A stretch of DNA of 23,198 nucleotides from a virus. Positions 12,225-13,318 of the stretch are shown here, one piece after another. Location: the IMG/VR virus record IMGVR_UViG_3300025141_008079, positions 1-23,198 of that record; one strand, written 5' to 3'. Each line of letters starts with the position of its first letter. The first letter of the stretch is position 1. The notes under the pieces are model-generated. The model saw only the letters and a list, made by a program, of their open reading frames with translations. It ran no database searches and was not told the origin of the DNA. The position numbers and the translations under genes are program-made.

Positions 12225-12251
12225 TAAAAAAGAGGAGGCAATGCCTCCTCT
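12225..12251 (-). terminator. Rho-independent terminator after the tail chaperone-like ORF
   Basis: On the minus strand GAGGAGGC, a three-base loop ATT and GCCTCCTC form a perfect stem (extendable by an A-T pair), followed by six Ts. It begins within a few bases of the stop of the 53-aa ORF and separates the sheath/tube/gp26 genes from the tape measure transcript. Confidence 0.9.
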
Positions 12252-12252
12252 A

Positions 12253-12414
12253 TTATCGTGAAGCGCTTCTCATTGAATCTGCTTCTTCTTTTAATTGTTT
12301 GGCGAGTCTCTCTACAAACCAGTTTCTTAATTGAACAGGTAAGTTGTATGCCTCTAACAAACTCCATCCACCGTGATACTTTAAAACGAAAAACTGTTCG
12401 TACACGGCTTCCAT
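12253..12414 (-). CDS. 53-aa ORF, candidate tail assembly chaperone partner
   Basis: The product is 53 aa: it starts MEAVYEQFFVLKYHGGWSLL, continues through EAYNLPVQLRNWFVERL, and ends in a charged helix. The 'LKYHGGWS..EAYNLPV..R.WFVERL' pattern looks like a conserved small protein coded in this same place in other T4-like phages. The ATG lies four bases after the gp26-like stop and has no Shine-Dalgarno. Expression therefore probably depends on translational coupling or on a frameshift from the upstream gene; the frame stays open about 25 codons upstream. Many tailed phages have two overlapping chaperone frames between the tube and the tape measure, and this ORF is in the place of the second. 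No function has been shown. Confidence 0.7.
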   Translation of the reverse strand: MEAVYEQFFVLKYHGGWSLLEAYNLPVQLRNWFVERLAKQLKEEADSMRSASR

Positions 12415-12418
12415 ATAA

Positions 12419-13318
12419 TCATGCGTCAGGCCAAAAAAAGTCCGTAGTAAAGGGCACCTCCATCTCCTGCTCGTGATTACAATTTTCGCAGACGAACTCC
12501 TGCGTTAGATCTATGTTGGGGGTGAGTTGGGCATAGACTTTCCTAAGAAACCGCGAATCAATCGCTGGCATCAAATCAAGAAACTTGGAAATCTGCACCT
12601 TGTCTTCTACACCGCTGACGGACATGACAAAAGTTTTGAAATGTTCTGTGAGTGGATTTTCTGGTAACTTTTTCTTGCGCTTCATTTCCTGAGTTGCTAC
12701 AATGCGCCTTTCATCGCGCCCATTCAAGAGTCTGACCTCTATTGAAACGCCAGTTCTGGGAACCGTGATAAAGTAGTGCCCTCCGGGGGAGGCAGTCACA
12801 TTCCCCTTTACTCTTTCGTCTTCGCACTCCTCTAAATTAATAGGAGGAGTAAGATTCGAGTTGGTTAAGTCAAATAAATACTTATTACTCTCATCACATG
12901 CGGGACATGTGACTTGTGTCTCATACTCTGCTCCATATCCGCTAATTCTAAGCGCTATCAGAATAGCGTTTTTATCTCCTGTCAATAAATCTTCAACCTT
13001 AATTGTTTTATCGACCAGAACGCTCTGTATGAGTCTGTCTAAAACTACTCCCTTTTGGATAAGAGATTTGGAAGTAAGAATATCTTCCTGCTTCGCTGTC
13101 ATTTCTCGAATCTCAACAGTAGTTTGGTTATGTAGTGGATGTTCTTCGGGATAAAATTTACCCTCTGAAGGGAGATCTACTAACTCCGTTGGATTCACAT
13201 ACGATAAAATATCCGTGGATCCTTCTGGGTTTCCTACTATAGTAGGTGGAACGTCGGCCGAATCTTTAGCTCCCGCTCGGGGGAACCCAAGACGCTCCTC
13301 ATTACTCTTTCTTGCCAT
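12419..13318 (-). CDS. gp26/gp51-type baseplate hub or tail assembly protein with zinc ribbon
   Basis: A 299-aa protein related by pattern to the T4 gp26/gp51 'T4 baseplate' family: LPSEGKFYP (49-57), EIREMTAKQEDIL, LIQSVLVDKTIKVEDLLTGDKNAILIALRI in the first half, and a conserved-looking C-terminal FFWP. Two CxxC pairs (C138/C141 in TCPAC and C277/C280 in CENC) probably form one zinc ribbon from distant parts of the chain. In T4 these proteins act in assembling the baseplate hub. The gene lies between tube and tape measure, where chaperones normally sit, so a tail assembly role fits either reading. The ATG at 13318 has GAGGT just upstream. The 3' end holds the U7 run and almost touches the 53-aa ORF. 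Confidence 0.82.
   Translation of the reverse strand: MARKSNEERLGFPRAGAKDSADVPPTIVGNPEGSTDILSYVNPTELVDLPSEGKFYPEEHPLHNQTTVEIREMTAKQEDILTSKSLIQKGVVLDRLIQSVLVDKTIKVEDLLTGDKNAILIALRISGYGAEYETQVTCPACDESNKYLFDLTNSNLTPPINLEECEDERVKGNVTASPGGHYFITVPRTGVSIEVRLLNGRDERRIVATQEMKRKKKLPENPLTEHFKTFVMSVSGVEDKVQISKFLDLMPAIDSRFLRKVYAQLTPNIDLTQEFVCENCNHEQEMEVPFTTDFFWPDA
12433..12439 (-). other. U7 run, candidate slippery site
   Basis: The minus strand reads GAC TTT TTT TGG six codons before the gp26-like stop. A +1 or -2 slip on the seven Us would join the gp26-like frame to the 53-aa frame without meeting a stop. A -1 slip would not. No obvious stimulatory structure was identified. Confidence 0.3.

Follow-up and report, generated by a model that had tools for sequence, protein, structure and literature searches.

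A gp26-like gene and the small reading frame behind it as a probable two-product tail assembly chaperone gene with +1 frameshifting

The window analysed here is a stretch of viral DNA of 23,198 nucleotides (IMG/VR record IMGVR_UViG_3300025141_008079). On its minus strand a gp26-like gene (12419..13318) encodes a protein of 299 aa, the predicted short tail assembly chaperone (TAC-N). This protein scored 56.6 bits against PF12322 (T4_baseplate; cut-off 24.5, E 3.9e-15) in Pfam, which places it in that family, and matched phrog_150 in PHROG at E 1.9e-18. An AlphaFold2 model of it (pLDDT 87) gave BFVD matches to baseplate hub and hub assembly proteins. The gene is flanked by the tail tube gene (phrog_4542) upstream, and downstream by a 113-aa ORF and then the tape measure gene (phrog_167). 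The same order of tube, PF12322 gene, small ORF and tape measure was found in Flavobacterium phage immuto, Bacillus phage SP-15, Microcystis phage Mel-JY01 and Streptomyces phage BRock; in the last two, what stands in the place of the tape measure is a long gene with a different annotation. T4 gp26 and gp51 are listed as hub assembly chaperones (PMC3004832), and the likeness to them, together with gene position, argues for a tail-chaperone function of the PF12322 gene. The natural fusion gp51 was modelled at pLDDT 87.5; no credible match among PDB folds was found for this model by Foldseek (best E 0.83) or by VIA-align (best Z 5.0, covering part of the model only), and a sequence search of solved structures gave no match, so that the chaperone role drew no support from structure in this analysis. 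A strong RBS precedes the 113-aa ORF (12182-11841, minus strand), for which neither Pfam nor PHROG gave a match; loci L004 and L005 carry a relative of 114 aa in the same place.

The end of the gp26-like gene reads GAC TTT TTT TGG CCT GAC GCA TGA (minus strand, 5' to 3'), with the TGA stop at 12421-12419. The preliminary description had pointed out a U7 run and a small ORF at this junction, and its account of their layout proved accurate. The first TTT of the T7 run (12433..12439, minus; codons TTT TTT TGG at 12431-12439) is six codons upstream of the stop, and the run is the predicted +1 slip site. A 53-aa ORF (12253..12414, minus) starts with an ATG at 12414, four bases past the stop, in the +1/-2 frame relative to the gp26-like gene, and this frame is stop-free from 27 codons before the gp26 stop. 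The trans-frame C-terminal domain, here called TAC-C, comprises 59 codons plus a stop (12253..12432, minus; GLTHDY-MEAVYEQFF...), as defined by translation and by its homologues. The ATG has next to no ribosome site: its anti-SD pairing is only -1.5 kcal/mol vs. -4.7 to -10.8 kcal/mol for most other window genes, although three other annotated starts in the window are equally or nearly as weak. The chance probability of a stop-free overlap of 27 codons is about 0.27, and five T7 runs occur on the coding strand of the window; taken alone, the overlap in the window is not beyond chance, and it is raised above chance because it is conserved in relatives. The C TTT TTT of the window is not a canonical -1 heptamer (X XXY YYZ in the zero frame). 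Directly 3' of the TAC-C stop lies a strong intrinsic-terminator-like hairpin of 9 bp followed by T6 (12231..12251, minus). It precedes the 113-aa ORF and the tape measure gene and could lower expression of the tape measure relative to the chaperone.

We compared 215 loci with a PF12322-type gene (the window and 214 others), of which the scan-derived ones are the best 80 of about 590 matches per scan and are therefore biased towards close relatives. Aligned jointly, the first 13 relatives proved too divergent for scanning contigs, and sub-alignments were used instead; the contig scan with sub-alignment A4 gave no matches, and no BRock-type homologues were found in plasmids. In 209 of the 215 loci the small-domain profile matched a frame overlapping the end of the PF12322 gene, and this frame was always shifted: +1/-2 in 116 loci, -1 in 93 and in frame in none. 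A canonical -1 heptamer was present in 92 of the 93 -1 loci vs. two of the 116 +1/-2 loci. The register of the T-run tracks the direction of the shift, NNT TTT TTC occurring in the -1 group and never in the clade of the window. A different frame relation together with the lack of a T-run in relatives had been named beforehand as evidence against frameshifting. The -1 relation does occur, but with the T-run in another register, and we read this as confirming the mechanism. A few loci have other layouts. In L113 and L114 the +1 overlap lies much further upstream and the T-run lies about 50 nt before the gp26 stop; in the uncultured phage LR756511.1 (L009) the small domain is in the -1 frame, the zero frame has a long tail, and the T-run lies about 70 nt before the stop. 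Vibrio phages D509 and VP-1 and Aeromonas phage phiA8-29 (L255, L258 and L259) have a small -1 frame ORF after the PF12322 gene and no canonical heptamer. In D509 and VP-1 this ORF contains a Met close to the stop, and coupling may be a third solution there.

The clade of the window consists of 82 loci in 52 clusters at 60% identity. Its slip site reads TTT TTT TGG in 78 loci, TTT CTT TGG in three and TTC TTT TGG in one, always 4-5 codons before the gp26 stop, so that the T-run and the frame relation are conserved in this clade, as the preliminary description had proposed to check. The excess of TTT TTT over codon usage is significant at p about 2e-19, and at 5e-12 with one locus per cluster. 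Among the 86 kyanovirus-type loci, which form only 7 clusters, 84 have T TTT TTC, while TTC makes up 25% of Phe codons elsewhere. Across very distant phages, the frame, the slip site and the small domain are conserved as a set and the ATG start is not, which supports the earlier proposal that the gp26-like gene and the small ORF form a T4-type version of the G/GT pair.

The reading we favour, with a probability of about 0.9, is a two-product tail assembly chaperone gene that would yield TAC-N by termination and the longer TAC-NC by a +1 slip. Most ribosomes would read the gp26-like ORF to the TGA and make TAC-N of 299 aa. A minority would slip +1 on UUU-U in the T7 run, four codons upstream of the TGA, by re-pairing of the P-site tRNA-Phe from UUU to UUU. 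Their product would be TAC-NC, 354 aa long and equipped with the small, helical C-terminal domain. On the model of lambda gpG/gpGT, the tape measure protein, whose gene lies downstream, may be coated by TAC-N, and tail tube subunits may be recruited by the C-domain of TAC-NC. The evidence for this reading is comparative throughout; slippage itself, its +1 (over -2) direction, its efficiency, the product ratio and the chaperone role are inferred.

A -2 slip, known from phage Mu, could yield the same two products, the longer one then having one extra Phe. Direction was scored by P-site re-pairing in the 116 loci of the +1/-2 group. Re-pairing after a +1 slip was possible in 108 of them; 98 of these also permit -2, for which re-pairing on the T7 run is as good as for +1, and ten permit +1 only (variants TTC TTT TGG, TTC TTT CGT, CTG TTT CGC and TTT CTA). 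None permits -2 only. We therefore prefer +1 and regard a -2 slip as unlikely. Eight of the 116 loci have no UUU-Y or CUU-U site, and six of these carry CCC-A. Relatives L118, L121-L123, L127 and L128, in the +1 group, lack UUU-Y and have CCC A inside the overlap. A proline +1 site of the CCC-A kind has been described from Listeria phage PSA.

The preliminary description had left it open whether the small ORF is frameshifted to the gp26-like gene or merely coupled to it. Under coupling, the small ORF would be a separate gene on which ribosomes reinitiate at the ATG four bases past the gp26 stop. The stop and the ATG do lie close together in the window. In most kyanoviruses an ATG is found 2 nt past the stop, an ATG near the stop was present in 77 of 82 scored kyanovirus loci, and the kyanovirus small ORF is annotated as a separate gene, gp51; in some relatives among the Ackermannviridae an ATG sits at the stop and the canonical heptamer is missing. 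In the clade of the window, however, the residue aligned to the putative initiator is Met (ATG) in only 30 of 82 loci, while the codon before it is Tyr in all 82 (TAC 43, TAT 39). An invariant Tyr with a free third position is the signature of a translated codon, and translation therefore appears to run through from gp26. The spacing from the slip site to GLxxxY is likewise constant across the 82 loci. Before the domain core an ATG is present in 35 of the 82 loci and absent from 47, and 32 have no ATG, GTG or TTG there at all. A good ribosome site for the small gene in relatives had been named in advance as a contrary finding; an ATG with an SD occurs in only three of the 82. Strong selection on codon choice at the slip site also speaks against an independent start. 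Judged from this conservation, coding is continuous across the gp26 stop, and the small ORF is almost certainly the end of the longer chaperone TAC-NC and no gene of its own. Of the two options first proposed, the frameshift is the favoured one, with the domain frame shifted in 209 of 215 loci, and the coupled start is quite improbable. Given the ATG near the stop in the window and in the 77 kyanovirus loci, reinitiation could add some free C-domain.

Transcriptional slippage would mean that RNA polymerase omits or inserts a U at the T7 run, so that the fusion is encoded by the changed transcript. In its favour is the presence of that run in nearly all of the clade of the window. This account is very improbable in view of same-frame relatives that have no homopolymer (TTC TTT CGT, CTG TTT CGC, TTT CTA). 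A sequencing or assembly indel that splits an intact fused gene comes to mind because homopolymers are error-prone and the two parts are fused in frame in T4 gp51, but it has next to no likelihood, as the shift recurs in 82 loci of 52 clusters, in isolate genomes and in loci without a homopolymer.

We also examined candidate stimulators of the predicted +1 slip. In the window, an internal Shine-Dalgarno-like GGAGGT (12456..12461, minus) lies 17 nt before the T-run and is a possible frameshift stimulator or pause site. GGAG or GAGG is found at exactly this position in 55 of the 82 loci of the clade, and the Glu codon at the site is GAG by 58:1 vs. 37% GAG elsewhere (p about 3e-24). Of the 86 loci in the -1 set, 74 have a GAGG 10 nt upstream of the heptamer. 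The stimulatory spacings given for an SD are 3 nt for +1 and 9-14 nt for -1 (PMC5009743), so that the 10-nt GAGG of the -1 set falls inside these ranges and the 17-nt GGAGG of the window's clade outside both. A search for a stimulatory RNA structure downstream found no conserved one. An upstream RNA-structure signal (mean z -1.1) was dismissed, its weakly supported pairs lying within conserved codons.

Vladimirov and colleagues reportedly describe frameshifting in several T4-like groups and name genes 26 and 51. T4 gp26 and gp51 correspond to the TAC-N and TAC-NC of their paper (Vladimirov, Gautam and Davidson, 2022, Virology 566:9-15). According to the passages that cite it, some T4-like phages have one short and one fused TAC gene and no frameshifting (PMC10885494), and TAC-N genes of T4-like phages contain polyT -1 signals (PMC12846349). 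On the strength of these passages, the principle of a frameshifted TAC in T4-like phages is already published; set against the same passages, the +1 clade and the conserved internal GGAGG at an unusual spacing are apparently new. We put forward tentatively, at somewhat less than even odds, the joint claim that a large, mostly uncultured T4-type clade slips +1 on UUU-U with the sense codon UGG in the A site, helped by a GGAGG 17 nt upstream, that +1 and -1 have switched within the family along with the register, and that T4 lost slippage by duplication and fusion. If this is true, an SD would act at a spacing of 17 nt, beyond both known stimulatory ranges. The series of slip sites within one gene family (+1 UUU-U, CUU-U, UUU-C and CCC-A; -1 U UUU UUY) lets the determinants of direction be tested. 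In several relatives checked, the small genes annotated as 'gp51' or hypothetical are probably pieces of one product.

T4 itself carries PF12322 twice, in gp26 (short) and in gp51 (the short form with the C-domain fused in frame), and therefore encodes the short and long forms separately, whereas the window has a single PF12322 gene with the C-domain in a shifted frame. Among long-tailed phages, T4 was named in a 2016 review (PMC5009743) as the exception to G-T frameshifting. There are two PF12322 genes per genome in Tevenvirinae and Pseudotevenvirus and one in phages of the frameshift type, among them ValKK3 and ZPAH1 of the Straboviridae; since such relatives keep one frameshifted gene, the comparison supports the later view of T4 as the derived case. 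The C-terminal extension of gp51 is homologous to the shifted-frame domain of kyanoviruses (hhalign 97%, E 1.8e-11; column-shuffled null at most 1.1%), and the kyanovirus C-domain had no match in T4 gp26. The C-domain of the window's clade matched that of kyanoviruses (hhalign 86%, E 5e-6) and had no direct match to gp51 (hhalign <1%), and it is therefore tied to gp51 only through the kyanovirus family. By way of this link, the small ORF is the probable counterpart of the C-terminal domain of T4 gp51, not of the whole gene. Weak matches to DUF6760 (PF20546) were seen in 8 of 24 C-domains (best E 0.0019); the window C-domain, at 14.2 bits and E 0.047, is below the 27-bit Pfam cut-off and was not assigned to that family.

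In the Kyanoviridae (P-SSM2, Syn9, HTVC008M), gp26 and the small 'gp51' make up the same pair, with the overlap in the same place and a T-run. Their frame is -1, with T TTT TTC and GAGG 10 nt upstream, whereas the window has a +1 frame and C TTT TTT TGG. The P-site re-pairing predicted for the window is that of the +1 site of prfB (bacterial release factor 2), CUU-U and rarely UUU-U; the window differs in its A-site codon, TGG and not a stop, and in having no SD 3 nt upstream. In many long-tailed phages, slippage yields the pair of helper proteins with which a tail of fixed length is assembled. Lambda (gpG/gpGT) and Mu likewise have a short and a frameshift-extended form encoded between the tube and tape measure genes. 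Lambda shifts by -1 and Mu by -2 (PMC5009743), whereas +1 is predicted for the window, and the likeness drawn here is one of arrangement.
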